Assembly: GCA_028819575.1 (NCBI GenBank)
Contig: JAPPLB010000166.1
Location: 1 to 37,667 of the forward strand
DNA length: 37,667 nucleotides
DNA from: Bryobacterales bacterium
Lineage (GTDB): Bacteria > Acidobacteriota > Terriglobia > Bryobacterales > UBA6623
Reading direction: 5' to 3'
Shown piece after piece: positions 5,472 to 20,675 of this stretch. The stretch's first letter is position 1. Each line of letters begins with the position of its first letter. The notes beneath the pieces are model-generated. The model saw only the letters and a program-made list of their open reading frames with translations, was not told the origin of the DNA and did not search any database. Made by a program: the position numbers and the translations under genes.

Positions 5472-6518
5472 CTACAGTGTGGCCATGTCGACGTTGTCAA
5501 AGTTTCGCTGGTAATACCGGACATAGTCGACTTTTCGCTGCAAGGCGTCGACGACGCCTTGCGTGAAACGGACTTTTTCAAAACGTTGCGCACTACCCAG
5601 CCCTCCCGGGCTAAAGACGTTGATCTCCATGAGCTTGTCGCCGACGATGTCGAGACCGACCAGGAACATCCCGTCCTGCACGAGCTTGGGCCGAACCACC
5701 TCCGCAACCCTCAGGTGAACGTCCGTGATTTCAACCTCCCGCAACTTACCCCCGGCATGGATGTTGCTTCTCATATCATCTCCCGTCCGAACACGCCGAA
5801 ATGCGGCATACTTGCCGCGGTAGCGAAACGGCGTGCCATTCATGACGAACAGCCGCGTGTCACCCTCCGCGGCAGCCGGCAAGTACTCCTGGGCGATGAT
5901 GAAGCCGTCGCGGCTGAGGGCCTCGATCATCTGATTCACATTCGATCCTCCACCCGGCTGGACGAGAAAGACACCGGAACCGCCCGAGCCCTGGAGCGGC
6001 TTCAGGACGGCCCGGCCCCCTTCGGCCTTGATGAATCTCTTGATCTCGTTCTTATCGCGACTGATGAGGGTACGCGGGCGAACCGATTCGGGGAAAAGCT
6101 GGAAGTACATCTTGTTGGTGGCTTTCGCCAGGCCATTCGGATCATTCAGGACAATCACCCCATGCCGCATCGCCACGCGGCCGAATACGATCCCGGCGTT
6201 CTGTGCCCAAGCCCGTTCGCCCTGCTCGGTGGAGGGATCGCTTCGCAACAACAGGACGTCGAGATCGTCGACCGTAATCCTCTCGACACGCGCTTTCGAA
6301 CCCTGGACATCCCTCAAGAAAGTTTCACCGCTGCTGTAAGACTTCCTCGGTCCCGTGCGAGCGATGGCATGCACCTTCTCGTCCGTGTCATAGATGAAGT
6401 CTCCAGCTCCGATGAGCCACGCCTCGTGACCGGAATTCAGGAGTTGCACGGCCAAGCGGGTTGTCGTGTACCCAGCCTGCTCCGTGCGAATATCGTTGAC
6501 CATCAATCCAACTCTCAT
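5472..6518 (-). CDS. GshB-like ATP-grasp ligase of the DUF1704 cassette
   Basis: This 348-aa ATP-grasp enzyme is built like bacterial glutathione synthetase. It has an N-terminal Rossmann-like part (MRVGLMVNDI; DDLDVLLLRSDPS at 84-96), NDPNGLAKATNK at 125-136, the ATP-binding loop VLKPLQGSGGSGVF at 171-184, AQEYLPAAAEGDTRLFV near 209-225, and the Mg-binding end VGLDIVGDKLMEINV at 287-301. Such enzymes join a carboxylate to an amine via an acyl phosphate. In GshB the EINV is followed by TSPTCIREIE; here it is FSPGGLGSAQ, so the acceptor pocket probably differs. The start is the ATG at 6518 with AAGGAG 8 nt upstream; it overlaps the DUF1704 stop as ATGA. A longer open frame to 6905 is a shadow. 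True glutathione synthesis is unlikely to be proven from this alone, since no gshA is nearby. Confidence 0.88.
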   Translation of the reverse strand: MRVGLMVNDIRTEQAGYTTTRLAVQLLNSGHEAWLIGAGDFIYDTDEKVHAIARTGPRKSYSSGETFLRDVQGSKARVERITVDDLDVLLLRSDPSTEQGERAWAQNAGIVFGRVAMRHGVIVLNDPNGLAKATNKMYFQLFPESVRPRTLISRDKNEIKRFIKAEGGRAVLKPLQGSGGSGVFLVQPGGGSNVNQMIEALSRDGFIIAQEYLPAAAEGDTRLFVMNGTPFRYRGKYAAFRRVRTGDDMRSNIHAGGKLREVEITDVHLRVAEVVRPKLVQDGMFLVGLDIVGDKLMEINVFSPGGLGSAQRFEKVRFTQGVVDALQRKVDYVRYYQRNFDNVDMATL

Positions 6519-8449
6519 TGCTTGCTCCTTAACAGTGGTTCTTGAATCAAGAGATCGACGAGGTTCGTATTGCTTCTGGCGGCTTGCAATCGCGCTTTTG
6601 CAGCGGGGTCGTCGAAATATCGCGGGATCAGCGGAGGGGGACGCAGGATCTTCCTCCGCAACAATTCCTCCATCACGCTCAGGTCGTCCATGCCGATCTT
6701 GCCGACCAGCAAGGGTTCGATGCCGCCGCCTTCGCGCAGGTACCGCAGAACACTCACCAGCCCGCGAAGATACGTCGCGTCCTTGGTCAACCCGCCGGAG
6801 CGGTGCACGCGCGCCGTGATGCCGAACGCGGTCCGCTTGGTGAAGCCGTGATCGTTGCAAAGCGTGTTGAAGGTCTCGATGAAATCGGCGCCGCCCGTCA
6901 TGCACTTGACCGCAATCACTCGCGCCGCAAGAAGCCGCAGACGCGCTGCGCTCAAGCCACCCACGAGGTACTCGCTCAAGACCGCCAGGCCCTCTTGCAG
7001 TTCGTCATAGCCAGCCAGTCCGGCACACAGCAAGCGGAACGGCTGAGCGCGGCCGTTAATGAATGTCAGAACGTGCGTGCCGACCTCGTGCTGGACCATG
7101 GCCTCCAGGCGATCACTGGGGACATGGAGGTCCGATCCAATCAATAGAGTTCCGTGGGAAACCATGAGACCGGTCACGTCGGAAGTGATCTTGATGCCGG
7201 CCTCCGCCTGATCGTGCTGCCGCTTGAAAAAGTCGATCTCCCGCCGGGCTCGGGCCGCGAACTCGGAGGCCGTCACCTTGCGGGCATCCGGGACGGGGCC
7301 CGCAGAAGGCGGGACCCTCTCCAGCACGTTGCGGGCAACCCGCAGCAGTGACGGACCGACGTTTCCGAAAGCAAGCAAGCTGCCGTACAGGAAATCCCTG
7401 GAGTCGCGCGCGGCCAAGGCCGTGAGCTGCCAGTCGAGTTCCCGCTGTTTCTCACGGAGAATCCAGCTCAGTTCCGGGTCCTCGATTCTCTTGATCGGAG
7501 CCGAAAACAGCTCCCGCTTCATCTCAAGGGGAGCGATCAGAAGCGGCCGGTATCCAAACCTCGGCGGCCTGGCCCCGCGGTTTCTCTCGAAATCAGCCCA
7601 GGCCGCCTGCAGGTTGACCGGGGTCACCGAGAGCAAAAAGTTCATGCGCTCGGTGATGCCGGCGAGGATGCGGTCCGCCTGCCAGACGGCCTTGACGACC
7701 GAACGGCGGCCCAGCATCTGATAGTGGGAGGGACGGAGTGAGGTCCGCTCGCGGATAAATTCGACCAATGCGTGCTTGGTGCTCTGGGAAAACTCCCGGC
7801 GCAGGTCCCGCAATGCCAGCGGAAATACATTCCGATCATCGACGGACCTGTAGACAGGCCGCACTTCAAGACCAAGTTGATGGACCCCATCTATTGTGAG
7901 CATCTGCTCGGAGAGCCAGGGGCTGAGCCCGGGTGGGCGGGCGTCCCAATCGACGACCGACTCGACCTCCGATCGAACGCGCCGCAGCCGAATCTCCCGC
8001 AAGGACCGCTCGAACGCTTCCACTGTGGGAAACAAGTCCTTCGAGCCTGTGTGCAAGAGGCGGAATCCGGGTTTTCTCAAGCTCAGTCCGTCGGCTTCAG
8101 CCGGTTCCTCACAAGACGACCACACTTCGACCAGAAGGAAGGCCCCGAACTCTGCCAGCCTGGTGTGAATGATGCCTTCAACGAGCGCTCTCAAGCTTCC
8201 CGCCAAGCTTGGGTCCGCGGAAGCGAGCACATAGGATGCTTCTCCCAGGAGCAAGTTCTCCGTCCCCTCATCCAGGCGTTCGAGAGGCCTTCTGTAGAGA
8301 AACAGGAACGGCAATCGACGATCAATGTGGATCCGGCCCCAGACAGGGAGCCTCCGCCTGACCAATTGGTTTTGACGCAGCCGTTCCAAGACCTCGTTGA
8401 TGAACCGCTCTGTGATCGGAGCCGGCTTCCGAGGGGGCGTTTCAGTCAT
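6515..8449 (-). CDS. DUF1704 / QEGLA-motif protein, predicted HExxxH metallo-carboxypeptidase
   Basis: The 644-aa product belongs to the family annotated as 'flavohemoglobin expression-modulating QEGLA motif protein' (TIGR02421/DUF1704). The zinc site HEVGTH is at 453-458 by count (MVQHEVGTHVLTFING), and the name-giving QEGLA at 485-489 supplies the downstream glutamate. The eukaryotic member MATCAP (KIAA0895L) is a tubulin tyrosine carboxypeptidase with the same HExxxH architecture, so a carboxy-terminal exopeptidase activity is a reasonable prediction. The N-terminal ~400 residues are helical and family-specific. No signal peptide is visible, so it should be cytoplasmic. Start and stop overlap both neighbours (8 nt upstream, ATGA downstream), indicating coupled translation with the amidohydrolase and ligase genes. 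The physiological substrate is unknown. Confidence 0.88.
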   Translation of the reverse strand: MTETPPRKPAPITERFINEVLERLRQNQLVRRRLPVWGRIHIDRRLPFLFLYRRPLERLDEGTENLLLGEASYVLASADPSLAGSLRALVEGIIHTRLAEFGAFLLVEVWSSCEEPAEADGLSLRKPGFRLLHTGSKDLFPTVEAFERSLREIRLRRVRSEVESVVDWDARPPGLSPWLSEQMLTIDGVHQLGLEVRPVYRSVDDRNVFPLALRDLRREFSQSTKHALVEFIRERTSLRPSHYQMLGRRSVVKAVWQADRILAGITERMNFLLSVTPVNLQAAWADFERNRGARPPRFGYRPLLIAPLEMKRELFSAPIKRIEDPELSWILREKQRELDWQLTALAARDSRDFLYGSLLAFGNVGPSLLRVARNVLERVPPSAGPVPDARKVTASEFAARARREIDFFKRQHDQAEAGIKITSDVTGLMVSHGTLLIGSDLHVPSDRLEAMVQHEVGTHVLTFINGRAQPFRLLCAGLAGYDELQEGLAVLSEYLVGGLSAARLRLLAARVIAVKCMTGGADFIETFNTLCNDHGFTKRTAFGITARVHRSGGLTKDATYLRGLVSVLRYLREGGGIEPLLVGKIGMDDLSVMEELLRRKILRPPPLIPRYFDDPAAKARLQAARSNTNLVDLLIQEPLLRSKQ

Positions 8450-9242
8450 TGGCCAGTCGACCGACTTCCTCGATCACACCGGGGACGGTCGATCGCAGAG
8501 CCTCCAGGATCGCCTGATGGTCGACGGGAAAGAGCGAGCCGGACCATTCGTCCATGAAGAACTTCTTGAACTCGATGGCAAGGGCGCAACCAGAGTCCGG
8601 GAATTGCTGGTGGATCCATCGAGGAAAATGTCCGCCCCGAAATTTGACGTTTTCCCGGACGTCCAGATGGCGCCCGCGGTAATCGAACTGCCGAAGATCG
8701 GAGATAAACCGGTCCACCACGGGCGCCCATCGATCGCGGTCCATCGATGCCGTGCCGATGTTGACTTCAGGGTTCGCGGCCGGGTCCGCCGGCGAGGCGT
8801 CCGGCCCGTCACGCCTGTGGTTGTAGGAGTGCAGGTCGAAGACAACGAACATGCCATGCCGTTTTCGGACGTCCGTCAAAACGCCGTGGACATAGCTGTA
8901 AAAGGCATCGTATTCCGCCAGCGAGGTGCTGATGAGGTTTTCTCCCGGATCCGATCTCCAGACGCGAAGCCCCCAAGCGTCGGCGGGAGTCCGGTAGACC
9001 GCTTTCTCCCGAGGGCGATTCAGGTCCACCTCGAAGCGAGACCGCCGCCCGACGATTCGCGTTCCGGCGGCCACTGTCCAAGAGCCCGTATAAGGATCTT
9101 CCTCTCGAAGCCGCTCCGGCTCGGGAAGCGCCAATAGGTGCGCAACGCCGGAGCGGACTTCGTGACCGTCATGTATCGCCGTTGCGATCAAGTTGCCGTC
9201 CGCAACGACGCTGCTCCAAAGATCGCCAGACTTTTCTTCCAT
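8442..9242 (-). CDS. N-formylglutamate amidohydrolase-like protein
   Basis: The 266-aa product matches the N-formylglutamate amidohydrolase (FGase) family, zinc-dependent hydrolases of amide bonds near a free carboxylate. Visible motifs are IHDGHEVR (23-30, two histidines), FEVDLNRPR (70-78), VFDLHSYNHRRDG (134-146, the typical D-x-H-S core) and a late ALAIEFKKFFMDEWSG stretch containing an expected glutamate. The ATG at 9242 follows an AAAGGG about 10 nt away. It is the first gene of the tight three-gene cassette, 150 nt downstream of the cotransporter gene. Housekeeping FGase acts in histidine breakdown, but no hut genes are here. In this context it more likely trims a product made by the ATP-grasp ligase (inference). 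Confidence 0.85.
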   Translation of the reverse strand: MEEKSGDLWSSVVADGNLIATAIHDGHEVRSGVAHLLALPEPERLREEDPYTGSWTVAAGTRIVGRRSRFEVDLNRPREKAVYRTPADAWGLRVWRSDPGENLISTSLAEYDAFYSYVHGVLTDVRKRHGMFVVFDLHSYNHRRDGPDASPADPAANPEVNIGTASMDRDRWAPVVDRFISDLRQFDYRGRHLDVRENVKFRGGHFPRWIHQQFPDSGCALAIEFKKFFMDEWSGSLFPVDHQAILEALRSTVPGVIEEVGRLAND

Positions 9243-9392: not shown

Positions 9393-11654
9393 TCACTCGA
9401 TCGCTACTTTCTCGCTCGCATAGACGAAAAGCACATCATTGGCCCCATCGTAGCGGCGCAAGGCCTGCTCCGCCGCTCCGGAATTCAATTCCTCCGCCTT
9501 CAGGCCCGTGATCAACAGATCCGTATCCGAGGATCTACGAATCACCTCGCTCTCCAGTGAAGACCCCGCTTTGAGGGTCACGGCAATCAAGTCCTGCCTC
9601 GAGATCGGAAGCCTCCCTTCGGTCATGAGAGCCGAAAGTTTGTCTGTCGGTTGCTCGGAGTTTCCCGAATCGATACAAGCAAAAAGCCTGATCCTGGCGT
9701 TTCTCCAGTCCGCGTGCCCGACGATGATATAGGCGAGAAGCAGCATGAGCCTGGCGTTCTCGAGATGGTCTTCAGTGACCCACAGATCGATTGACGAGCG
9801 GTAGCCGAAGCGGTAGGGCGTGGAACGAAGGACCAAGACGTTGAACATGGATTCGGCGGCCACCACGGCTCCCTGCACCGTTTCATCCATCTCTTCCGGA
9901 TGCTCCTTGTCGAATTCAAGCAGAACGCAGTTGTTGGGCAAACCGGAAATGCCCGGCAACTGGAGTGTTTGCGCCACGGCGGTACGGAACGAAGGGCATA
10001 TCAGGGAGTCCACGAAGACTTCCGCCTTGCTGTCAGCCGTCTGTTGGACGAGCTTGTTCACTTGTTTGCGCGCCTCGATTTCCGCTGCAAAGGTGTATTC
10101 ACCCGGAAAGAACTCAATGAAATGTCCGAAGCCATGCCGCTGGCTGATCCACCGCAAGAGGTCGAAATGCCCGAGCCGGCGTGCTCCGAAACGGGTTATC
10201 GCAACGACTGACGGCCTCCAGCCCCCTTCCACCGTCACGACACGATTCTGCTGCAGCTTGATCTGGAGCCGCCGTGTCAGTTGGAACATCGTTCCCTGGA
10301 AGATTGCCGTCAGGCCGCGCTCGTCTTTCCGCGTGCGCCGCAAGCCGGAGTAGATCGCCACCATCAGCAAGACCGACACGAAGGCATAGAACACGTTCAT
10401 CTGGATCATCAACACGCCGCACATTACCGCTCCGAGCAGCGACAGATACCAGCGCGAGTGGAAGGTGGGGCGATAGGACGGGTTGCCGGCGAAGTATTCG
10501 AGGAACGACACCGAGCAAAGCGCGCCGTAGGTGACCATGAAGAACATGCTGAGGATTTGGGCGATGAAGTCTACGTCTCCCAGGACGACGAAGACGACAG
10601 CGATGGCGCCCGAAACATAGGTTGCGACAGCCGGCTCGTTGCCGGGTCCGCGGCCCTGTTTCAAGATTCGATTCAGCCTCGGCACGGGGAGCACCCTGTC
10701 GCGGGCCAGCGCCTGCAGGGTCCTCGGGGCCACCAGAATCGAACCCAGCGCCGAGGACAGCGCGGCTGCCCCGAGCCCGATGTGGATTGCAGGCCCCCAC
10801 AGCGCAATTCGCGCCATAACGAACTGGTCAGCGCCCAGGGCCTCCGGCGTAGCGCTCTGGGCCAGCTTGACGGCGACCACCGCATACACGACCATTCCCG
10901 TCAGCGTCGCTCCGATGGTGCCGAGAGGAATGCTCTTCTGCGGATTCTTCAAGTCGCCGGAGAGCCCCAATCCGGCGATCATCCCGGTGAATGCAGGGAA
11001 GCACGTGGCAAAAACCAAGCCGAAGCTGTCGGCGCCCTCTATCCGAGCCGTCAGGTTGAGACCGTCAGGCCGGATCGACTCGGGTCCGTGTCCGAGCAGG
11101 AACGCGGAGATCGACGCGGCCAGCATTACGCTGACGATCCAGAGCACGCGCACGCCCAGATCCGCGCCTTTGGTGAGAATCAGGGCAACCATCAGGACCG
11201 TGGCCGGCAGGCTCACCCAGCGCGGATCCGGGTTCAAGCCGTGAGCCGCGGCGGCCCATTCGTAGACCGGCTCGAACGCTTCCGCGAACGCGACCAGGTA
11301 GAAGGCGACCGAGATCGCCTGGGACAAGTAGAGCGCAATTCCGATCGATCCCCCAATGCTGGTGCCGAACGAGCGGCTGATGATGTAGTACGCGCCTCCT
11401 CCCGCCACCCGGCGGTTTGTGGCGATCTCGGACACGGCCAGAACGGTAGGGATCGTGACGAGATGCCCGAGCACGATGATCACCAGCGTGCCCCACAGGC
11501 CGACGTGCGCCACGGCGTAGCCGAATCGCAGGAACAGGATCGCGCCCAGAATGGTGCTGATGGACGCAAGAAATACGGGAGCAGTGCCAAAGCCCAGACC
11601 TCGATCCGGGACCTTGGAAACCCTTTTGGATGGTTTGATTCCTGCAGCAGTCAT
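9393..11654 (-). CDS. SLC12-like cation-chloride cotransporter (APC superfamily)
   Basis: The 753-aa inner-membrane carrier has about 12 membrane helices in its first ~450 residues, beginning with GTAPVFLASISTILGAILFLRFG, which is close to the first helix of NKCC/KCC proteins. The C-terminal ~300 residues are cytosolic and carry the SLC12-type segment ARLMLLLAYIIVGHADWRNA and a late DLLITGLKAEE stretch. Known SLC12 proteins couple Na+, K+ and Cl-; the ion set here cannot be read off. ATG 11654 is chosen because the 35 additional residues of the longer frame do not look conserved and run through a perfect inverted repeat at 11705-11733. Its Shine-Dalgarno is weak. The neighbours are ion-transport genes, which fits ion or volume homeostasis. 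Confidence 0.87.
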   Translation of the reverse strand: MTAAGIKPSKRVSKVPDRGLGFGTAPVFLASISTILGAILFLRFGYAVAHVGLWGTLVIIVLGHLVTIPTVLAVSEIATNRRVAGGGAYYIISRSFGTSIGGSIGIALYLSQAISVAFYLVAFAEAFEPVYEWAAAAHGLNPDPRWVSLPATVLMVALILTKGADLGVRVLWIVSVMLAASISAFLLGHGPESIRPDGLNLTARIEGADSFGLVFATCFPAFTGMIAGLGLSGDLKNPQKSIPLGTIGATLTGMVVYAVVAVKLAQSATPEALGADQFVMARIALWGPAIHIGLGAAALSSALGSILVAPRTLQALARDRVLPVPRLNRILKQGRGPGNEPAVATYVSGAIAVVFVVLGDVDFIAQILSMFFMVTYGALCSVSFLEYFAGNPSYRPTFHSRWYLSLLGAVMCGVLMIQMNVFYAFVSVLLMVAIYSGLRRTRKDERGLTAIFQGTMFQLTRRLQIKLQQNRVVTVEGGWRPSVVAITRFGARRLGHFDLLRWISQRHGFGHFIEFFPGEYTFAAEIEARKQVNKLVQQTADSKAEVFVDSLICPSFRTAVAQTLQLPGISGLPNNCVLLEFDKEHPEEMDETVQGAVVAAESMFNVLVLRSTPYRFGYRSSIDLWVTEDHLENARLMLLLAYIIVGHADWRNARIRLFACIDSGNSEQPTDKLSALMTEGRLPISRQDLIAVTLKAGSSLESEVIRRSSDTDLLITGLKAEELNSGAAEQALRRYDGANDVLFVYASEKVAIE

Positions 11655-11704
11655 TGGCGTTTCTTTCTTGTTCGGGATGAAGTGGCCGCATTCGCCGCTT
11701 GAAA

Positions 11705-11733
11705 GCGAAACTCGACCAAAGAAGGAGTTTCGC
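11705..11733. promoter_or_regulatory. Perfect 9-bp inverted repeat upstream of the cotransporter gene
   Basis: GCGAAACTC (11705-11713) and GAGTTTCGC (11725-11733) are exact reverse complements with an 11-nt spacer. The repeat lies about 50 nt upstream of the cotransporter ATG, in the 168-nt gap after the TolC-like gene. It could be an operator or an RNA hairpin controlling the distal part of the operon. There is no T-tract directly after it on the minus strand. Confidence 0.55.
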
Positions 11734-11822
11734 CCAGCGACCTGCCGGGCCGGAGTCAAGCACCCGCCGCCCGACCCGCGCTTGCCATGGCAGTGAACTC
11801 GGCGTGCTGTCTTTCGACTCGG

Positions 11823-13043
11823 TTACAAGGCGATCTCTCCAAGAACCCGTTCGAGTTCAACTTCCGCTTCTTTCGCGGCGACCTGCAACTCCAGAAACCG
11901 GAATTCCGCAGCTTGAATAGCCGGCACCGAATCCAGTGCTTCCAGAGCGATCGATGCGTCATTGCGGTAGACGGCGAACGTTGACATCCGCAGTTCCTGG
12001 GCCGGAGCGAAGACCCTTCTGCGGTAGTCGTCTGCGGCAGTGCGGCGAATCCGGAACGTGTCGTGAGCAGCCTGGACTTCGGCCAGCACCCGGTTGCGAA
12101 GTGTCCGAAGCTGCTCGCGAAGATGGACATGCTCGGTGCTCGCTGCTGGTTCACCTGACGGCCGGCCGGGCCAAAGAGGCACCGGCACCGACACGGCAAC
12201 GTACGGTCCGACAACAAGGCGGTCCACCACCTCAGCCCGCTTGATTCCACCCTGCAGTTTCAGATTCGGCTTCCAGCCCGGAGTTGCGGCCGAGGCTTCG
12301 AGACGTGATGATTCCAGCTTGGCGGCCGCCGCGCGAATATCGGCACGGCCGGCCAACGCGACAGACAGCGCCTCGCGAAGCGGCATGAGATCCCGCACCG
12401 GCAGCAGTGAGCCTTTCGCTCGCAGAGTCCCGGCATTGACCTGATCGCCCAACAGGCCAGCGAGAACCGCCTTGGCCTGGGCAGCCAGGATCTCGGTGTC
12501 TGAGGAAGATACATCAAGCTCGGCGATGGACTTCTCCGCTCGGAACACGTCGAATTTCGAGGCCTCCCCCGCCGCGTGAAGAGCCTCCACGGCGCGATGG
12601 ATGTCTTCGAGTTCGACGTTGTTCGCCGCGATGACCTGCTTGCGTTGCTGGGCGTAGACGAGGCGGTAGAAGGCGGCGAGCATCCGCGCCGCCATTCGGC
12701 CCGTCTCGAAATTCGCACGAGCTTCTCGCGAGTCAGCCTCCAGCTCATCCAGCTTCCGCGCCAATCCACTCCGCCTGTTGAATACGATCTCCTGCTCGAT
12801 GAAATAGAATTCCGTTCTCCCCGCCCCCTCGAATGACGCGTTCAAGGAAGCGCCCGGCCGGGGAGGCTGCCAAGGCCTGACGGCGCGCATGGGGTCGAGG
12901 TTCTCGCGGTACTCACTGACGCTGGGGCTCTCGCGCAGGAGCCGCATCGCCTGCGCCTCCGTGAGCTCCTGAGCGGCTCCTGACGACGCAAGAAGGAGCA
13001 GCAGCAGGATGGCGTTCTTACCAGAATGAATGCTCGAAATCAT
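11823..13043 (-). CDS. TolC-family outer membrane efflux protein
   Basis: The 406-aa product has a Sec signal peptide (MISSIHSGKNAILLLLLLASSGAAQ, cleavage near residue 25). Two helix-rich OEP repeats follow; they contain LARKLDELEADSREAR, the AFYRLVYAQQRKQVIAANN helix, a second repeat starting near RDLMPLREALSVALAGRADI, and GPYVAVSVPVPLWPG, a strand turning into the beta-barrel. It is somewhat short for TolC/CzcC proteins. No inner-membrane pump or membrane-fusion protein is encoded next to it, so its partner must be elsewhere or it serves another role. A GGAAAGGAAG stands just before the ATG. It lies 127 nt after the CNNM gene and is probably in the same operon. Metal or anion export is a guess from the neighbourhood only. 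Confidence 0.85.
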   Translation of the reverse strand: MISSIHSGKNAILLLLLLASSGAAQELTEAQAMRLLRESPSVSEYRENLDPMRAVRPWQPPRPGASLNASFEGAGRTEFYFIEQEIVFNRRSGLARKLDELEADSREARANFETGRMAARMLAAFYRLVYAQQRKQVIAANNVELEDIHRAVEALHAAGEASKFDVFRAEKSIAELDVSSSDTEILAAQAKAVLAGLLGDQVNAGTLRAKGSLLPVRDLMPLREALSVALAGRADIRAAAAKLESSRLEASAATPGWKPNLKLQGGIKRAEVVDRLVVGPYVAVSVPVPLWPGRPSGEPAASTEHVHLREQLRTLRNRVLAEVQAAHDTFRIRRTAADDYRRRVFAPAQELRMSTFAVYRNDASIALEALDSVPAIQAAEFRFLELQVAAKEAEVELERVLGEIAL

Positions 13044-13170: not shown

Positions 13171-14409
13171 TCATTCTTGGACTTCTGGATGGATTGTCCG
13201 AAGCCGGACCAGGTTGGCGCGACCACCTTCCGCCTCCACGACCTCAGCAGTTGCGCCGTCGAGTCGCACTCGATCGCCGACTTCCAGCAACCTCCCAACA
13301 AGGCTGACCATCAAACCAGAAAGCGTTTCGACATCCGGAGAGAAGAGGTCGAGGTTGCACTCTCGGTTAATGCGTTCGAGAGGGAGTTGACCCTTGACAA
13401 GAAAGGCGTCTGACCCTTCCGTGGTGATTTCCGGCGGCTCAAAGTCAAACTCGTCCTGCACGGCTCCGACAATCTGCTCCAAGAGGTTCTCCATCGTGGC
13501 GATACCGACGACCGAACCGTACTCGTCGTCTACCACCACCATATGCTGGTGTGTCCTCTGCATGTCTCGCAGTAGGCGGCTGATCGGCAGGGTTTCCGGG
13601 ACATGGCGGAGAGGCCGCACAATCGACTCGAGCTCGAAGCCGGCACCTTGGTCCACGACAAGAAGATCCTTGACATGGATCAGGCCAATCACGTCGTCAA
13701 GGGAGTCCCGACAGAGCGGAAACCTCGTGTGACGTGTTTGCTCCGCCATATCCAGACACTCCTTGAGCGTCCAGGACATGTCAAGGAAAACAACGTCTGT
13801 TCGAGGCACCATCACCTGACGTACGAACGTATCGTCAAAACGGAAGACGGCATGCAGGAGTTTCAGTTCTGTTGACGACAGCTCGCCCGCCTTGCGGCTC
13901 AACCGCATACTCGCTTGGATCTCGTCCTTCGTGATCAACGCGACCCCGAGACCGCCGGTTAACAAGCCGGCGAACGACTGGGTGATCTTGATGACTGGGG
14001 CAAGACACTTGGCGAGTACGGTCAAGGGCCACACAATCAAGTGCCAAAGCCTCTGCCAATGTGTTGCACCGTAGGTCTTCGGAAGGATCTCACCAGCGAA
14101 GAGAATCGCCAACGTAAGAGCTGCTGATACGATCGGCACCATACCGGGACCGAGGACTTGCGTTGCGTACATGCCGCAAAGTGTGGCACCGGCCGTATTT
14201 GCAACGGTGTTCAGAACCAAGATCGCGGACGTGGGCTCCGCGATGTTTGACTTCATGCAGATCAAACGGTCCGCCAGGGCGGAATGCTTGCCTTGCGCTC
14301 TCTCGGCCTCAAGCGCCCCCATGCGTACGGAATACAAGACGGCCTCGAAAAACGAACATGCGCTCGAAATCAGCACTGTCAGGCAGGCTGCAATCATGAG
14401 GACTGTCAT
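13171..14409 (-). CDS. CNNM/CorC (HlyC) family CBS-domain membrane protein
   Basis: The 412-aa inner-membrane protein comprises an N-terminal CNNM/DUF21 membrane domain (about residues 1-170) with a conserved FAGEILPKTYG segment. Two CBS motifs follow, the first starting at VRQVMVPRTDVVFLDM and the second containing VVVDDEYGSVVGIATMENLLEQIVG. The C-terminal CorC/HlyC domain contains DAFLVKGQLPLERIN and DVETLSGLMVSLVGRLLEVGDRV. Family members influence Mg2+ (or Co2+) export, with CBS domains sensing Mg-ATP. It lies 28 nt downstream of mgtE, which supports a shared role in Mg2+ balance: MgtE for uptake and this protein for export or regulation. The ATG at 14409 lacks a close strong ribosome site, so translation may depend on the upstream gene. 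Confidence 0.92.
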   Translation of the reverse strand: MTVLMIAACLTVLISSACSFFEAVLYSVRMGALEAERAQGKHSALADRLICMKSNIAEPTSAILVLNTVANTAGATLCGMYATQVLGPGMVPIVSAALTLAILFAGEILPKTYGATHWQRLWHLIVWPLTVLAKCLAPVIKITQSFAGLLTGGLGVALITKDEIQASMRLSRKAGELSSTELKLLHAVFRFDDTFVRQVMVPRTDVVFLDMSWTLKECLDMAEQTRHTRFPLCRDSLDDVIGLIHVKDLLVVDQGAGFELESIVRPLRHVPETLPISRLLRDMQRTHQHMVVVDDEYGSVVGIATMENLLEQIVGAVQDEFDFEPPEITTEGSDAFLVKGQLPLERINRECNLDLFSPDVETLSGLMVSLVGRLLEVGDRVRLDGATAEVVEAEGGRANLVRLRTIHPEVQE

Positions 14410-14437: not shown

Positions 14438-15748
14438 TCAAATCAGACTCGAGAAGACGGTGGCCAGACCCAGGAAACTCATGAATCCAAACACATCCGT
14501 CACGGTCGTCAGAATGATCGAGGAAGACTGAGCCGGATCTTGCCCGAGTGAGTCGAGGAGGATCGGAATGACGGCTCCGGCCACACCGGCTATCGCCATA
14601 GCGAGGATCATGGCCATGCCAATGACCAGCACGAGGCCCATGGAAGAACTCCAGAGATAGACACCGGCGCAGGCGACGACCGCTACTCCGACGCCATTCA
14701 GCGCACCCGCGAACAGTTCCTTCAAGGCCACTGTTGGCAACTGCCGGCGAGTGATCTCCCGCACCGCGAGTCCCCGAAGCACCACCGCGAGCGCTTGGCT
14801 GCCGGTGTTGCCTGACTGCCCGGCCACTACCGGAAGAAGGACGGCGAGCGCCGTGAACCGAGCGATCGTATCCTCGAAAAGGCCCACCACCGCGGCCGCC
14901 AGGAATGCGGTGGCCAAGTTGACCTGCAACCAAGGCAGGCGTTTTCTTACGGCGAACCCCGGCCCCGAAAGGGCGCTCTCCTCCTTGCTTGCGCCGGTCA
15001 TGCTGAGAAGGTCCGAACTGAGCTCCTTTTCCACTTCTTCGATCAATTCGTCGAGCCGAAGAACGCCGATCGGGGTGTTCTGCGGTCCGACCACTGGCAG
15101 GCTTGCGAGCCTGTGGCGTCTCATGGTCTCGACGATCTCGGACCGGGAGGCAAACGGTGAAACTGCAAGTGGAGGCTGACGGACCAGAGACAAGAGTGAA
15201 TCGCCTGGATCGGCCACAAGTGCCTCGTGCAACGGGACCGTTCCCACCAGACCGCCATCATCGTCCACGACAAAGAGGTTGAGCAGGGACCGCCCCCTGT
15301 GAACGGACTTCAGACGCGCGAGTGCGTCCGCGACCGACGTCGTGGTCCGGAAGACGGCGATTCCTGGATCTCTCAGTCGGCCGGCGCTGTCGGGTTGGTA
15401 GGTTGCCAGGACGCGAAGCTCTCGGGCGTCCGCCTGTGACATGCGTTCGAGGATCTCCTCGCGTTTCGCTTCGGTCAGGCCTTCCAGGACTGCACCGGCT
15501 CTAGCGGGCGCCAGATTCAACAGGAGAGCACCGCAAGCCAATGGCTCGGCGGACTCGAGAATATCGAGGGCCTTCGCAAGCGAGAGAGTGCGGAATGCTT
15601 TGGCGAGGACTCGGGGATCGATGGATGCCACAACATCGGCCGCTTCCTGCAGGGCCATGTCCTCAAGATGCTCCGCCACCTCGTTGGGGCGCCGCTCAAC
15701 GAAATCCTGCGCGAGGAGGGTATCGATTTCAGAGCAAGCGTCAGGCAC
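14438..15748 (-). CDS. mgtE: MgtE Mg2+ channel/transporter
   Basis: The 436-aa product has complete MgtE architecture: a cytosolic N domain with helical repeats (residues 1-125), a CBS pair (about 126-245), the plug helix region, and five membrane helices from about 273. Diagnostic motifs are PVVAGQSGNTGSQALAVVLR at 306-325 and GQDPAQSSSIILTTVTDVFG at 402-421, which contains the conserved membrane aspartate D418. MgtE admits Mg2+ and closes when cytosolic Mg2+ binds the N and CBS domains. The start is GTG at 15748, backed by GAGAGG 6 nt upstream; it overlaps the preceding stop by 8 nt. The upstream gene encodes a second, soluble copy of the regulatory half. Confidence 0.95.
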   Translation of the reverse strand: MPDACSEIDTLLAQDFVERRPNEVAEHLEDMALQEAADVVASIDPRVLAKAFRTLSLAKALDILESAEPLACGALLLNLAPARAGAVLEGLTEAKREEILERMSQADARELRVLATYQPDSAGRLRDPGIAVFRTTTSVADALARLKSVHRGRSLLNLFVVDDDGGLVGTVPLHEALVADPGDSLLSLVRQPPLAVSPFASRSEIVETMRRHRLASLPVVGPQNTPIGVLRLDELIEEVEKELSSDLLSMTGASKEESALSGPGFAVRKRLPWLQVNLATAFLAAAVVGLFEDTIARFTALAVLLPVVAGQSGNTGSQALAVVLRGLAVREITRRQLPTVALKELFAGALNGVGVAVVACAGVYLWSSSMGLVLVIGMAMILAMAIAGVAGAVIPILLDSLGQDPAQSSSIILTTVTDVFGFMSFLGLATVFSSLI

Positions 15749-16580
15749 GATTCGCCTCTCTGGTTGCCTCGGAAGTGCGCCGAACCGCGATTACGTCGCC
15801 CAGGAGCCTGCCCATGCCGCACCAGTACATCTCGCCGATCGAGGCCAGCAGATGCGTTGCGCGCTGCGGGGCTTTCGGTTTTTCCACTGTCCGAAGAGTA
15901 TCCTCGGTCAGCACACCAACGAGCTTGCCGGACGGGTCCAAGACAGCTACCGGCCCGCCTTGATAGTGCTCGTCCGATACCAGCACCAGTAAAGGAACAC
16001 CCTGCGAGACCGTCCTGGGTTTGGCCAGCTTCAACGATCCGATCGTCCAATCTCCAGGAGCAGCGAGGAGCTGGGCAGGGGTCACGGCGCCGAGAACCCT
16101 TTTCCCCCGGTTGATCACGAACAACGTCGCCGAGATCGTTTCTCCGTCGGCTCTGAGCAGGCTGACGGCCTGGTCAACGGTATTCTCTTCGTGCAGGACG
16201 AGAGCCCGGGGGTCCGCAAGCGCACCCGCGGATTCCTTCGGGAACCGGAGCACCCTGTCAATCCGCTTTCTCGTCTGAGCGGGCAGGCCCTCGAGAGTGG
16301 TTTTCCGTGAGGACTCCGGGAGGACCCGCAACAAAGCCGCGGCGACCGGGACCGGAGATGCTTGCAAGACCAGACAGCGCGCCATGACGGGCATCCGTTC
16401 AATGCAGTCACTGGCCACGACCGGCGACAGCAACGCCAAGACACGGGCCGACGTCTCGTAAGCCCCCCCGGCCAGAAGTTCGGCCACTCCGGCCGATGGG
16501 CATCGCTCGAGGATTCTCACCGCCTCGGCGGGATTGCGGTGCAGATGGAGGTGCGCGAGACTCCGTACTCCGGGACTCAT
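15741..16580 (-). CDS. Soluble MgtE-N/CBS regulatory-domain protein (no membrane domain)
   Basis: The 279-aa product resembles only the cytosolic half of MgtE. A helical N domain (about 1-135) ends in the MgtE-like linker RFPKESAGALADPRALVL (compare the family pattern Y-P-x-D-S-A-G). Two CBS-like motifs follow (for example TLFVINRGKRVLGAVTPAQL and GGPVAVLDPSGKLVGVLTED). The C-terminal tail (MYWCGMGRLLGDVIAVRR) has no hydrophobic helix bundle, so the channel part is absent. GGAGG 6 nt before the ATG at 16580 supports the start; a longer frame to 17309 is a shadow of the next gene. It overlaps mgtE by 8 nt and its upstream neighbour as ATGA. It may bind MgtE or sense Mg2+/nucleotides for the adjacent channel (inference). 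Confidence 0.75.
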   Translation of the reverse strand: MSPGVRSLAHLHLHRNPAEAVRILERCPSAGVAELLAGGAYETSARVLALLSPVVASDCIERMPVMARCLVLQASPVPVAAALLRVLPESSRKTTLEGLPAQTRKRIDRVLRFPKESAGALADPRALVLHEENTVDQAVSLLRADGETISATLFVINRGKRVLGAVTPAQLLAAPGDWTIGSLKLAKPRTVSQGVPLLVLVSDEHYQGGPVAVLDPSGKLVGVLTEDTLRTVEKPKAPQRATHLLASIGEMYWCGMGRLLGDVIAVRRTSEATREANRA

Positions 16581-17395
16581 CGGTTGCCTCCGACCACGAC
16601 ACAGGCTTCGTCGCAGTACCTTCTGGCCGGCAAGTGGACCTGGTCGTCTCCCGCATCGACCACGATCGATGTCGATGTGATCTCCCGCACAATCCCCTCG
16701 GTTTCCCCGATTCGGACCGAGTCGCCCACTCCCAATGCCCGCGAAGCGTAGTACGAGGCCATGATGTTGGTCACTACCGGACCCGATCCCAGTCCGAACG
16801 CCAGGGCCATTCCGCCCAGCGTCGAGCCGAGAACAATCGCAGTCATCGACACGAAGATGCTCCCTTCGAGCCCGACTTGCTGGACAGCCACGATCAGTGT
16901 CACCGCAAGGATACCGGCTTGGGATATCCGACCCAGAACGCCAGGATTCGAAATGCCGGCCTTGGAGGCGATATCGAAAATCCATTGATGCGCGAGGCTT
17001 GCCAGGCTGGCCCCAGCGAAGACAAGCAGCAGCGCAAACAGCACCTTTGGCAGGAAGTACGTCAGGGTTTGCAAAATGTCCGCAGCGAACGGCACCGACA
17101 GTTTCTCGATCGCGGCCATTGCAAAGTACAGGAAGATGGCCCAGTAAACTCCGCGGCCAATCACTGTTGGAGCTGCGCGCCAGAAGCCCAATCCTCTCAA
17201 GGACCCAACGCTCTCGATGCGAGCTTCGACCCGGCCGGAGAGCGCCGTCAGGAACTTCTTGACGAGCAAGCTGCAAACCCAAGCCAGAGCCCAGCCTGCC
17301 AACAGCCATGCAGCAGCCATCAGGATCTGCGGAGCGGCCTCCCTGACGCCGCCGGCTGCGGACTCGATGATCGTGGTCAAGCTCGGAAAATCCAT
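16577..17395 (-). CDS. MscS-like / TM-helix repeat channel protein
   Basis: The 272-aa inner-membrane protein has about five hydrophobic segments and repeats of the 'conserved TM helix' type seen in small MscS relatives. The helix near 178-210 (SMTAIVLGSTLGGMALAFGL, then GSGPVVTNIMASYYASR) resembles the pore helix and beta-domain entry of MscS, and is followed by GVGDSVRIGETEGIVREI and STSIVVDAGDDQVHLPARRY, a compact MscS beta domain. The large C-terminal alpha/beta cage of E. coli MscS is missing. AGGAG shortly before the ATG at 17395 supports the start. The stop overlaps the MgtE-N-like gene as ATGA. Osmotic or conductive function is likely from the family, but selectivity is unknown. Confidence 0.82.
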   Translation of the reverse strand: MDFPSLTTIIESAAGGVREAAPQILMAAAWLLAGWALAWVCSLLVKKFLTALSGRVEARIESVGSLRGLGFWRAAPTVIGRGVYWAIFLYFAMAAIEKLSVPFAADILQTLTYFLPKVLFALLLVFAGASLASLAHQWIFDIASKAGISNPGVLGRISQAGILAVTLIVAVQQVGLEGSIFVSMTAIVLGSTLGGMALAFGLGSGPVVTNIMASYYASRALGVGDSVRIGETEGIVREITSTSIVVDAGDDQVHLPARRYCDEACVVVGGNR

Positions 17396-17447: not shown

Positions 17448-18311
17448 TCAGTCTGCTGGAGCTCCAGCCCCCTCGCGGACCGGCGGCTCCCTCTCGACTA
17501 CGGCGTTGAGGAGCTGAGAATTGGGGACGCTCCAGTCCCTGTCCTCGGAACGGAAGAGAGTGTCCACGGGCCCGATTCTTGCAAGCGTGCCACGCCGGCC
17601 GAGCACTTCGACGGTTGCACCCTCCCGGATGCTCTTCCGCAAGTAGTAACCGGCCAAGATCGCGCTTACCACGTCGCGAGAGCCGACCGCGAACGAGAAA
17701 GCGATCGAGAACAGCACCGCGGCCAGGACTGCGATGAGCGACCACTGAAGAAGCGAGGACTTCACGCCCAGTTGCTCGACAGCAACAATGCTCACGACCG
17801 CGATCATCGAACCGCGCGCCGCGAGGCCCAGGGTATGGGAGTACGGGACTTCGGAGGCGGCCGCTCCCGAACTCACCGCGTTGCCAATGAAGCGGGCCAG
17901 AAGCAAACCGAGCATCAAGATGAGCAGCGATGCGATCACGTTCGGAAGGAAAGCGATCAACAGGTTGGTCGCCGTGGCGACAGAGGTGAGGCCCAGCGTT
18001 TCAGCGGCCGGCAGGACAAAGGTCAACAGCACGAGCCAGTACAGCAACCTGCTGATCAGGCCGGAGAGCGGACGTTGGATACCAGCTTCCTCCAGAATCT
18101 CGTTCAGGCCCAGATAGCCGCCGGCCTGATCGAGCTTCGCCCGCACAAGAAGTTTCGCGGTTGCAGCCTGGGCAATTCTAGCGATGATCCAACCGATGAG
18201 CAGGATCGTGAACATTCCCGCAATTTTTGGAGCGAAACTCGCAAACTGCGCTCCCAGATTTGCCAGCGAGTTGATAATCAGCTCGCCAAGGTTTCCGATG
18301 ATCTCAGTCAT
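17448..18311 (-). CDS. TM-helix repeat / MscS-like membrane protein
   Basis: The 287-aa polytopic protein is related in plan to its downstream neighbour. Its helices include FTILLIGWIIARIAQAAT, LLIAFLPNVIASLLILMLGL and LIAVLAAVLFSIAFSFAVGS. Near the end a short beta domain follows the pore-like helix (RDVVSAILAGYYLRKSIREG, then GRRGTLARIGPVDTLFRSED and DWSVPNSQLLNAVVE). The last motif matches the MscS-type 'xVPNSxL' signature better than the neighbour does. GGGAGAAG precedes the ATG at 18311, which overlaps the 85-aa gene by 8 nt. Two unequal MscS-like subunits in a row could form a mixed channel (inference). Confidence 0.8.
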   Translation of the reverse strand: MTEIIGNLGELIINSLANLGAQFASFAPKIAGMFTILLIGWIIARIAQAATAKLLVRAKLDQAGGYLGLNEILEEAGIQRPLSGLISRLLYWLVLLTFVLPAAETLGLTSVATATNLLIAFLPNVIASLLILMLGLLLARFIGNAVSSGAAASEVPYSHTLGLAARGSMIAVVSIVAVEQLGVKSSLLQWSLIAVLAAVLFSIAFSFAVGSRDVVSAILAGYYLRKSIREGATVEVLGRRGTLARIGPVDTLFRSEDRDWSVPNSQLLNAVVEREPPVREGAGAPAD

Positions 18312-18561
18312 GATTTGGTCTTCTCCCGTTATCGAGGCCGATTAGGGATGTCAGCGCTCCAATCGACAAACACAAATGCTCCCTCACGAGAACTGTGGTG
18401 CTGAATTCGACGATGTCGCGAACACTCATCGAAGCGTAGGCATGATTCATAACCGCTTTGGGAAGCGCCGGCTTCACTCGGGGCTCTTGAATTGTGAGCG
18501 GAGCGAGCAGACTTCGAGCTTCCCGCTCCCATGGCTCGCTGTTTCCGTTTCTGGATGTCAT
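18304..18561 (-). CDS. Small protein encoded between ECF sigma factor and channel gene; unknown
   Basis: The 85-aa product has no family that I recognise. The start is ATG 18561, overlapping the sigma factor stop as TGATG; a TTG one codon upstream is less likely. The first half is charged and proline-rich (EREARSLLAPLTIQEPRVKP, then ALPKAVMNHA). The second half contains a mildly hydrophobic stretch (EFSTTVLVREHLCLSIGALT, then SLIGL) before a short polar tail. A gene coupled directly behind an ECF sigma factor is often its anti-sigma factor. The short length and possible membrane-associated helix would allow a reduced one, but no zinc-finger H-x3-C-x2-C is present. Confidence 0.6.
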   Translation of the reverse strand: MTSRNGNSEPWEREARSLLAPLTIQEPRVKPALPKAVMNHAYASMSVRDIVEFSTTVLVREHLCLSIGALTSLIGLDNGRRPNHD

Positions 18562-19172
18562 CAAGCGTCCTCTGACAATCTTTTGCGCAGTTGCTCGAGT
18601 CCCCGGCGCACCCGCATCTTGACGGCCGATTCGCCCAGACCGAGTTGCGCAGAGATTTCGTGGTAGGTCTGCTCTTCGAGAAAACGCAGCGCAATCGCCA
18701 AGCGCGTGGTTGGATCAAGAGCGCCCATCGCTCGCTCGAGAACAGCACTTCGCCGGCTGTCGGTTGGTCCAGGGCCGGAAACCGATGCACGGAGAAAATC
18801 GCCGTATCCCGCCCGTCTTCTGGCCTCCCGGAAGCGGGTCCGGAGAAGATTGCGCGCCGAGTTCGTCGTGATTGTGAGCAGCCAGTGCTCGAGCGGCTGC
18901 TCGGGCCGAAACCGCTTGATCGATCGGAACACCCTGAGGAACACATCCTGTACGACCTCTTCGGCATCCTCGGCGGAGCCGACGAGCCGGAAGGCGCGCC
19001 GAAACACCGTGCCGGTGTATTGATCGACCAGCTCTCGGAAAGCGGCCGTCCCGTATGGGGCTTCCTCCTGGATCCGGCGTACAAGTTGCAGGGTTGGAGA
19101 TTCAGGTTCGGCATTTCCGGGATTGTCCGCTTGACCGTTTCCCACGCCTTGCTTTCGTTTCCTTCTACCCAT
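18561..19172 (-). CDS. ECF-type RNA polymerase sigma factor
   Basis: This 203-aa sigma70-family protein has sigma2 at about residues 42-110 (FRELVDQYTGTVFRRAFRLV, then GSAEDAEEVVQDVFLRVFRS) and a WLLTITTNSARNLLRTRFRE segment that melts and reads the -10. Sigma4 lies at about 145-200 (LDPTTRLAIALRFLEEQTYH, EISAQLGLGESAVKMRVRRG, LEQLRKRL), the helix-turn-helix for the -35. The N-terminal 30 residues are basic and polar. ATG 19172 is chosen over a longer frame to 19301, because the extension would run through the half-repeat ending at 19267. It is the first gene of the long minus-strand array and its stop is coupled to the 85-aa gene, so it may direct its own operon. Confidence 0.9.
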   Translation of the reverse strand: MGRRKRKQGVGNGQADNPGNAEPESPTLQLVRRIQEEAPYGTAAFRELVDQYTGTVFRRAFRLVGSAEDAEEVVQDVFLRVFRSIKRFRPEQPLEHWLLTITTNSARNLLRTRFREARRRAGYGDFLRASVSGPGPTDSRRSAVLERAMGALDPTTRLAIALRFLEEQTYHEISAQLGLGESAVKMRVRRGLEQLRKRLSEDA

Positions 19173-19266
19173 CGATAACCCCGGCACGACGTGAATCGTC
19201 ACAAGATGTGAAGAGTGAATCGAGATCCCACCGTGGGAACCGGAACTCACCACTGTGAGAAAGTAG

Positions 19267-19359
19267 CCTGCATTTCTCACCACCCGACGGTCGAAGAACA
19301 CGATACGACCGCCAGGACTTCGTTGCGCTTGCTTGCCGTGCTCGATTTACTGTTCACTA
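19267..19359. repeat. Solitary left half of the palindromic repeat element
   Basis: It begins with the terminal sequence CCTGCATTTCTCACCAC (19267-19283) and follows the left half of the copy at 22691, with small changes, to about 19359 (TTACTGTTCACTAG). No right half follows. It lies in the divergent promoter region between the sigma factor and mscS-like genes. Confidence 0.85.
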
Positions 19360-19677: not shown

Positions 19678-19701
19678 ATGAGGAAGAATCAAAGACCATG
19701 A
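19678..19701 (+). promoter_or_regulatory. Seven-residue leader ORF (MRKNQRP) coupled to the mscS-like gene
   Basis: ATG 19678 follows GAAGGA closely and encodes MRKNQRP. Its TGA (19699-19701) overlaps the channel ATG (19698-19700) as ATGA. This resembles the leader ORF before the AT-hook gene. It may set channel translation by coupling. Confidence 0.35.
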
Positions 19702-20675
19702 GACGCATTCCAACCCTATTGTGGCTGACAGGGCTCATGGCCCTGTTGGCAGCGGCACTTGCGGTTGCCTGGTTCAAGATTTCATGGGCGCCCACCGCAT
19801 TTCGCAGCGTCTATCAAGTATTACGGGAGATCTGGAGCCGGCCCTATTCGACCTTTGGGAACCTCGAACTAACCTTGGAACTCGGAGCCACGGTAGCGCT
19901 CTACATAGCCCTGCTATGGCTCGTTACGAGAGTCATCGCCACGGTGCTACGCACACAGGTCCTGGACAAGACCATTCTGGGAGAGGGGCACAAGTTCGCC
20001 GCACAGCGGGTTACAACCTACCTCATATTCTGCCTCGGTATCCTGACCGGATTACATGGCCTGGGCATCGACATGAGCAGTATCGCCGTATTCAGCGGAG
20101 CGCTGGGAATCGGCCTTGGTCTTGGCTTTCAGACGATTGTCAAGAACTTCGCTTCCGGGCTGATCCTGCTGATCGAGCGGCCGGTCAAGGTGGGAGACCG
20201 GGTTCAGGTCGAAGACCTGCTGGGAGACATCACCCACATCGGCTCACGCGGGACGTGGATTCGCACCAACGAGAATGTCGTGATGATCGTTCCGAATTCA
20301 GAATTCATCGAAGGAAGAGTGACGAATTGGACGGCGAACGACCGGAACGTGCGGATCAACGTCCCGCTGGGAGTCTCCTACGGCAGCGATCCGGAACATG
20401 TGAGATCCGTGCTGAAGCGGGTGGCGCGAGAACACCCGGATGTCCTGGACGAGCCTCCATCCGACGTTGTGTTCACGGGATTCGGTGACAGTTCCCTCAA
20501 TTTCGAGCTGCGCGTTTGGACCGCCAAACAGGTAACGACCCCCAAGATCATCGCTAGCGACCTCTACTTCAAGGTCTTCGCCGCCTTCAAGCAGGCAGGC
20601 ATCGAGATACCGTTCCCACAACGGGATCTGCATTTGCGATCGGTTTCCACTTCGATCCCTCATTTAGAGGGATAG
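19698..20675 (+). CDS. MscS-type small-conductance mechanosensitive channel
   Basis: The 325-aa inner-membrane protein has three or more hydrophobic helices, then the standard MscS pore and beta domain. The pore helix is glycine/alanine-rich (SGALGIGLGLGFQTIVKNFA), followed by SGLILLIERPVKVGDRVQV. The beta domain has DITHIGSRGTWIRTNENVVM, then IVPNSEFIEGRVTNWT. The C-terminal alpha/beta domain ends with AFKQAGIEIPFPQRDLHL, the classic MscS end. It opens under membrane tension to release solutes on hypo-osmotic shock. It is transcribed away from the sigma factor operon that carries two smaller MscS relatives, so three such proteins lie within about 4 kb. Confidence 0.94.
   Translation: MRRIPTLLWLTGLMALLAAALAVAWFKISWAPTAFRSVYQVLREIWSRPYSTFGNLELTLELGATVALYIALLWLVTRVIATVLRTQVLDKTILGEGHKFAAQRVTTYLIFCLGILTGLHGLGIDMSSIAVFSGALGIGLGLGFQTIVKNFASGLILLIERPVKVGDRVQVEDLLGDITHIGSRGTWIRTNENVVMIVPNSEFIEGRVTNWTANDRNVRINVPLGVSYGSDPEHVRSVLKRVAREHPDVLDEPPSDVVFTGFGDSSLNFELRVWTAKQVTTPKIIASDLYFKVFAAFKQAGIEIPFPQRDLHLRSVSTSIPHLEG

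Follow-up and report, generated by a model that had tools for sequence, protein, structure and literature searches.

A free-standing MgtE N/CBS protein encoded between an MscS-like protein and a divergent MgtE, a candidate regulatory subunit

The window, that is, the whole stretch of 37,667 nucleotides analysed here (contig JAPPLB010000166.1 of a Bryobacterales bacterium), carries on its minus strand, in the order of transcription, the genes for the MscS-like proteins MscA and MscB, for a free-standing half of MgtE which we call HALF, for MgtE and for a CNNM-type protein (Table 1). The genes of MscB and HALF share 4 nt and those of HALF and MgtE share 8 nt. The reading frame of HALF starts with an ATG at 16580 and has no internal stop. 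The host genome is a 5.4-Mb draft in 200 contigs. Its single MgtE membrane domain is the one encoded in the window, and three of its proteins have an MgtE_N domain, namely this MgtE, HALF and a 424-aa protein encoded on another contig before an Nramp gene. That the trio of MscS-like protein, HALF and MgtE, here called the cassette, is the only Mg2+ importer is not shown: a genome search finds CorA absent from the host, but CorA is present in three genomes of the window's family of 18 genomes (G001, G004 and G005), and G002 of the same family has neither CorA nor MgtE. No riboswitch family was found in the window and no Mg2+ riboswitch in 11 other loci, where the sole match was an unrelated DUF805b in L147.

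Table 1. Positions of the cassette genes, of the parts of HALF and of the flanking genes in the window
Feature	Position	Strand	Description
MscA	17448..18311	-	second MscS-like protein of the same kind as MscB
MscB	16577..17395	-	MscS-like channel with PF05552 helices and beta-domain; C-terminal cage absent
HALF	15741..16580	-	free-standing MgtE_N, CBS pair and C-terminal helix; 279 aa
MgtE_N domain of HALF	16236..16535	-	residues 16-115; Pfam 37.3 bits; same stretch found by genome search
CBS pair of HALF	15879..16229	-	about residues 118-234; from AF2/DSSP, fold alignment and site mapping
C-terminal helix of HALF	15747..15863	-	residues 240-278; aromatic motif G-E-M-Y-W in the window, commonly G/A-E-L-Y-W
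Cassette-type MgtE	14438..15748	-	436 aa, GTG start; pore motifs PVVAGQSGN and PAQSSSI
CNNM/CorC-type protein	13171..14409	-	downstream of mgtE; occasional, not constant, neighbour

The preliminary description of this DNA had read the 279-aa product as the N domain and CBS pair of MgtE without membrane helices, had placed its gene in an 8-nt overlap with mgtE, and had proposed a profile search. The coordinates bear out the overlap, with mgtE reading from the GTG at 15748, and Pfam, the AF2 model and hydropathy bear out the rest. In the profile search both MgtE_N (cut-off 25.9) and CBS (28.7 bits, cut-off 24) score above their cut-offs. The second CBS is missed by Pfam; it is visible in the AF2 model and in the fold matches. 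The MgtE transmembrane family (PF01769 pore domain with P-x6-GN and P(D/A)-x4-P-x6-D) is absent from HALF by Pfam and hydropathy, Pfam finds no DNA-binding domain, and NCBIfam returns only a partial mgtE match far under its cut-off. Across 68 aligned HALFs, MgtE_N is matched in all and CBS in 65.

The AF2 model of HALF, made with 68 sequences (mean pLDDT 90.6, pTM 0.75), has a helical N domain, two CBS folds and a long C-terminal helix. Its nearest solved folds are the cytosolic domains of MgtE (Foldseek E 2.9e-13; VIA Z 15.4), the closest being that of Thermus thermophilus (2yvy, 2zy9, 5x9g), which has the same N domain, CBS pair and following helix. The rmsd to the MgtE cytosolic domain is 13.0 over 231 residues (VIA), so that the N and CBS domains are placed differently in the model. 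Taken by itself, the CBS pair (alignment over model residues 114-239) superposes on other CBS pairs at 2-3 Å and matches AMP-bound CBS structures. HALF differs from the T. thermophilus protein in being a separate gene product without membrane domain and in having lost nearly all Mg2+-site acids and most ATP contacts. No membrane helix is predicted in the window HALF: Kyte-Doolittle means over 19 residues reach at most 1.76 in the body, at a site within the folded N and CBS domains, and 0.94 in the helix at the C-terminus, as compared with a median top mean of 2.47 in the cassette MgtEs. A membrane anchor in the C-terminal helix is not supported, as only 13 of 68 HALFs exceed 1.6 in a 19-residue window there. 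This helix has conserved aromatic positions (Y/F in 55 and W in 44 of the 68) and sits where MgtE has its plug helix.

In canonical MgtE, Mg2+ bound at the interfaces of these domains holds the plug helix in place, and the pore is thereby closed (PMC9276622, PMC8104411). We mapped the sites involved in a joint alignment of 13 canonical MgtEs, 36 cassette-type MgtEs (four of them without an observed HALF) and 33 HALFs, with the caveat that identities in these alignments are about 20-30%. The residues compared are those which we take to be the Mg2+-site acids of T. thermophilus MgtE; each falls on an acid of the chain after an offset of 23. All 13 canonical MgtEs retain D91, D214, E216, D247, D250, E255, E258 and D259. 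The 36 cassette-type MgtEs retain D91 and D95 in no case, D214, D226 and E258 once each, D247 twice and D250 four times; E216 (22), E255 (23) and D259 (27) are kept in most, so that some Mg2+ response may remain. Among the 33 HALFs, E59, D95, D247, D250 and D259 are found once each, E255 and E258 twice, D91 five times and D214 nine times. A mapping with a larger set (68 HALFs, 58 MgtEs), in which D91 is unaligned in MgtE, agrees in outline. Judged from these alignments, the cassette MgtE has lost most of the canonical Mg2+-sensing acids and, having lost them, should not close by a Mg2+-fixed plug helix.

The losses in HALF go further and comprise nearly all Mg2+-site acids and most ATP contacts. 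At the ATP contacts Y170, R187, D188 and F227, taken from PMC5529423, the window HALF has T, A, Q and G, and 5, 6, 4 and 6 of the 33 HALFs retain the respective residue; F227 is a weak criterion because only three of the 13 canonical MgtEs have it. The earlier idea of a nucleotide or Mg2+ sensor thus finds no support where a sensor of the known kind is meant. The pore of the cassette MgtE is altered as well. PVVAGQSGN is present in 55 of 58 sequences, and in all 58 an I replaces the second proline of P(D/A)-x4-P-x6-D; in canonical MgtEs, P-x6-GN was found in 17 of 19 sequences, all 17 with GGN. The cassette MgtE is a distinct subclass, marked by the altered pore motifs and by the loss of most Mg2+-sensing acids. 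Since the four MgtEs without an observed HALF also have the changed pore, this change does not go with HALF alone.

The MscS-like proteins carry PF05552 in 64 of 65 and the MscS beta-domain in 46 of 65 cases. MscB shares with the MscS family the PF05552 helices and, in its model (pLDDT 84.8), a broken pore helix and the beta-domain, so that the predicted structure has the pore helix and beta-domain fold of an MscS channel. Its 35 fold matches at E <=0.001 are MscS, YnaI, YbiO, MSL and MscK, together with two entries whose titles give no more than membrane protein (3udc, 3t9n). MscB differs from the family in that it is encoded with HALF and MgtE and has no C-terminal alpha/beta cage: there is no match to PF21082 and the model ends after the beta-domain. 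MscA also shares the PF05552 helices and is 27% identical to MscB over 249 columns.

For the distribution of the cassette we searched 84,980 species genomes with the alignment of the cassette MgtE, not with HALF. Both search patterns were derived from the cassette MgtE subclass, and the sample is therefore this subclass. HALF lies upstream of MgtE in 72 of the best 80 of 108 loci. Of the eight loci without HALF, five start at or just before MgtE where the contig ends (L100, L116, L124, L126, L150), and three, L097 and L148 (both Chloroflexi) and L153 (Kiloniellales), show no HALF in more than 5 kb of upstream sequence. An MscS-like gene is present in 69 of 69 testable HALF loci, the other three of the 72 being cut inside HALF (L093, L108, L158). 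In 67 loci it has the orientation of HALF and lies immediately upstream; in two (L109, L115) it is divergent. In 48 of the 67 it overlaps HALF, and the gap never exceeds 9 nt; HALF and MgtE overlap in 60 of 69 loci. The records with HALF bear the names of a dozen phyla, mostly from metagenome bins whose labels may be wrong: Acidobacteriota, Binatota, Pseudomonadota (several classes), Myxococcota, Gemmatimonadota, Nitrospinota, Nitrospirota, Krumholzibacteriota, Omnitrophota, Bacteroidota, Actinomycetota and Desulfobulbaceae. Among the carriers in culture are Panacagrimonas perspica, Pseudomaricurvus alcaniphilus and Zooshikella harenae.

Surveys seeded with HALF scored the six best candidates per genome, and their counts are lower bounds. 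HALF is present in at least 24 of 369 gammaproteobacterial genomes; a 25th match (G684) was rejected as a canonical MgtE. MgtE follows directly in 23 of 23 testable loci, with L177 ending at the contig, and 23 of 24 loci have an adjacent MscS-like gene. G762, which seemed to have HALF without MscS, has its MscS-like gene some 2 kb further upstream, on the far side of a histone-deacetylase-like gene; a gene of the latter kind lies between the MscS-like gene and HALF in L188 and in G762:C5. In L196 the frames of MgtE and of the MscS-like protein are both broken. At least six of 396 Acidobacteriota genomes have HALF, all six as the trio. Within the 18 genomes of the window's family, HALF is found in six and MgtE in five, all five as a HALF-MgtE pair. 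The genetic linkage of HALF to MgtE is thus constant in the MgtE-seeded and in the testable gammaproteobacterial loci. Cassette-type MgtEs without a neighbouring HALF do exist (L097, L148, L153, L213, L231), which means that such an MgtE can be kept without HALF.

One genome of the window's family, G005, has the MscS-like gene and HALF, no MgtE channel in the genome and two CorA. This suggested that HALF might work without MgtE, an idea weakened by a 111-aa MgtE_N stub after HALF (L010:2333-2668, 27.7 bits to MgtE_N). Because the stub occupies the position of the MgtE start, the channel was probably lost there and not always absent. No relative of HALF was found in viral contigs, which gave nine pattern matches only. 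The 11 plasmid records that matched each cover less than 80% of HALF, and all 10 of them that were listed are annotated as MgtE. The CNNM gene was rejected as a constant part of the cassette, as it is missing from most cassettes including that of G014. Of the link to MgtE or the neighbouring channels suggested in the preliminary description, the part concerning MgtE and the MscS-like protein is strongly supported by the conserved overlapping gene order across phyla; for CNNM, an occasional neighbour, the link is weak. HALF as a trans-acting partner is well supported.

The preliminary description had also left it to a phylogeny whether HALF arose by duplication of the local mgtE. In a quick tree with midpoint root, built from 96 hand-picked rows of which three HALF rows are long, a branch (SH-aLRT 89, unstarred) separates the HALFs from all MgtEs. 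The cassette MgtEs are apart from the canonical MgtEs and the Nramp-type fragments (100, starred). Window HALF and window MgtE are only about 30% identical over 175 residues. A local duplication of mgtE as source of HALF is rejected on both grounds. Because the HALFs group apart from the MgtEs in the quick tree, HALF is an old family and not a recent copy of its neighbour.

The counts given here were made on alignments of HALF (the window and 67 of 72; three cut sequences and one each of 235 aa and 343 aa dropped), of MgtE (the window and 57 of 71) and of the MscS-like protein (the window and 64 of 70), the latter two with near duplicates removed by hand. The mean distance is larger for HALF (2.02) than for its neighbours (1.34 and 1.55), and HALF is the fastest evolving of the three. 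Close HALF pairs have dN/dS values of 0.15-0.24 in nine of ten cases and of 0.51 in one (dS 0.06). Low dN/dS and the MgtE_N and CBS matches across the aligned HALFs argue that the open reading frame is not a chance one. Over 55 loci the pairwise distances of HALF correlate with those of the MgtE cytosolic part (r = 0.66), the MscS-like protein (r = 0.56) and the MgtE membrane part (r = 0.51), values which none of 500 permutations reaches. These correlations are evidence of joint inheritance and do not in themselves imply contact.

MgtE is the textbook channel that senses its own ion. In the canonical lock, Mg2+ draws the N and CBS domains together, and the plug helix is thereby fixed and the pore closed; the cassette MgtE has lost most of the ligands of this lock. 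We suggest that the MscS-like protein and the divergent MgtE form a two-channel unit in which HALF serves as dedicated regulatory subunit. HALF would bind the cytosolic domain of MgtE in trans as a mixed N/CBS assembly, with its C-terminal helix near the plug helix or the membrane, and would supply a closing or opening lock by protein contact. The MscS-like protein would give input to HALF, and control of HALF by it is probable. The domain content, the conserved overlapping gene order, the single family, the purifying selection and the residue losses are the established parts from which we start; from these we infer physical binding, the direction of control, the ion carried and a role of membrane tension. 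As a whole, the reading of HALF as an accessory subunit which replaces the Mg2+-driven gating of the divergent MgtE, with input from the MscS-like protein, is the one we favour, tentatively and with nearly evenly divided minds. A more specific version is a widespread three-protein system in which the MscS-type protein reports membrane tension or osmotic state, through HALF as soluble adaptor, to an MgtE pore that no longer has a Mg2+ lock. Mg2+, or a different ion let through by the altered pore, would then move with turgor and not with internal Mg2+. This version seems to us possible though rather doubtful.

HALF could instead be mainly the cytosolic gate of the cage-less MscS-like channel, with MgtE as a co-expressed functional partner that it does not bind. 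The presence of the MscS-like gene in every testable locus, mostly in overlap with HALF and never more than 9 nt away on the same strand, fits such a gate, as do a model that stops after the beta-domain with MscS-family top folds and the retention of the MscS-like protein and HALF in G005 without the MgtE channel. However, HALF has the fold of MgtE and a helix in the plug-helix position, it stays with MgtE where the MscS-like gene is divergent (L109, L115) or separated (G762), and its distances correlate better with the MgtE cytosolic part than with the MscS-like protein. We therefore consider a gate of this kind unlikely. A ternary complex of HALF, MgtE and the MscS-like protein would satisfy this gate and the regulatory subunit alike, and gene order alone cannot separate the two; the conserved adjacency of the trio could also reflect shared expression only.

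Still less probable in our view is that HALF works as a free soluble sensor for Mg2+ or nucleotides, with MgtE or gene expression as its target. Many proteins bind nucleotides through a CBS pair, and that of HALF matches AMP-bound folds; yet the Mg2+-site acids and the contacts Y170, R187 and F227 are mostly missing, HALF has no DNA-binding domain and the locus no riboswitch family. To the idea that HALF is a copy of mgtE in decay, which has persisted by chance, we give next to no credence. The faster evolution of HALF and the truncated MgtE in G005, where decay does occur at such a locus, would agree with decay. Against it stand the low dN/dS in nine of ten close pairs, the branch of the tree that sets apart the HALFs of records named after a dozen phyla, and a length and C-terminal motif which are similar throughout; purifying selection and wide conservation already refute it.

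Free-standing homologues of the MgtE cytosolic part are known beside another transporter. In Shin et al. (2014, PMC4072509), MgtE-like fragment genes adjoin NrmT (Nramp-related) transporters, among others in Acidobacterium capsulatum; their role was left open there and feedback control was proposed. The partner of these fragments is an Nramp protein, whereas the neighbours of the window HALF are an MscS-like protein and MgtE. The same layout as described there is seen in the host genome itself, where the 424-aa MgtE_N-CBS protein (L001:907-2181, contig C128) is encoded directly before the Nramp gene. Compared with HALF it has about 180 extra N-terminal residues, with a PRC-barrel match under the cut-off, and keeps several of the acids, and its relatives fall in a separate clade. 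In the quick tree 14 fragments of Nramp layout, an adjacency checked by Pfam for L001 only, form a group of their own (100, starred) separate from the HALFs (89). The canonical MgtEs of Acidobacteriota have N, CBS and membrane domains homologous to those of the cassette MgtE, which differs from them by its AGQSGN-type and PAQSSS-I pore motifs and branches apart (100, starred); no HALF lies within 1.5-kb flanks of these canonical genes.

In the PMC literature, where most subscription papers are missing, we found no report of the MscS-like-HALF-MgtE trio; what PMC12903955 offers is a list of genes only. Through the trio, partner and setting become defined for one class of free-standing MgtE fragments. 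A large MgtE subclass which has been kept across phyla with most of its sensor lost and its pore altered, and which is linked by overlap to HALF and an MscS-type channel, makes two questions testable: by what means an MgtE lacking the Mg2+ lock is gated, and whether there is a physical connection between Mg2+ transport and the sensing of osmotic state.

The cassette has further neighbours in the window. Downstream of it lie SLC12/K-Cl-cotransporter-like and TolC-like genes (9393-13043, minus strand). Near it on the opposite strand lies a gene for a full MscS channel with the C-terminal domain (19698-20675, plus strand), which L087 and L088 have as well. L088 keeps the order MscS, sigma factor, MscA, MscB, HALF, MgtE, (CNNM), TolC-like, SLC12-like, and L087 keeps it without CNNM. 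The neighbourhood looks like an ion or osmotic island. The contig of L088 is labelled Dehalococcoidia and carries the full island of Bryobacterales type with an MgtE 75% identical to that of the window, a case of misbinning or transfer. Two ECF sigma factors are encoded in the window on the minus strand (18561-19301 and 28417-29046); the gene of the latter overlaps that of a zf-HC2 zinc-finger and HEAT-repeat protein, which may be its anti-sigma factor. Another overlapping row on the minus strand (5472-9242) consists of glutathione-synthetase-like ATP-grasp, MATCAP-type carboxypeptidase and N-formylglutamate-amidohydrolase-like genes.
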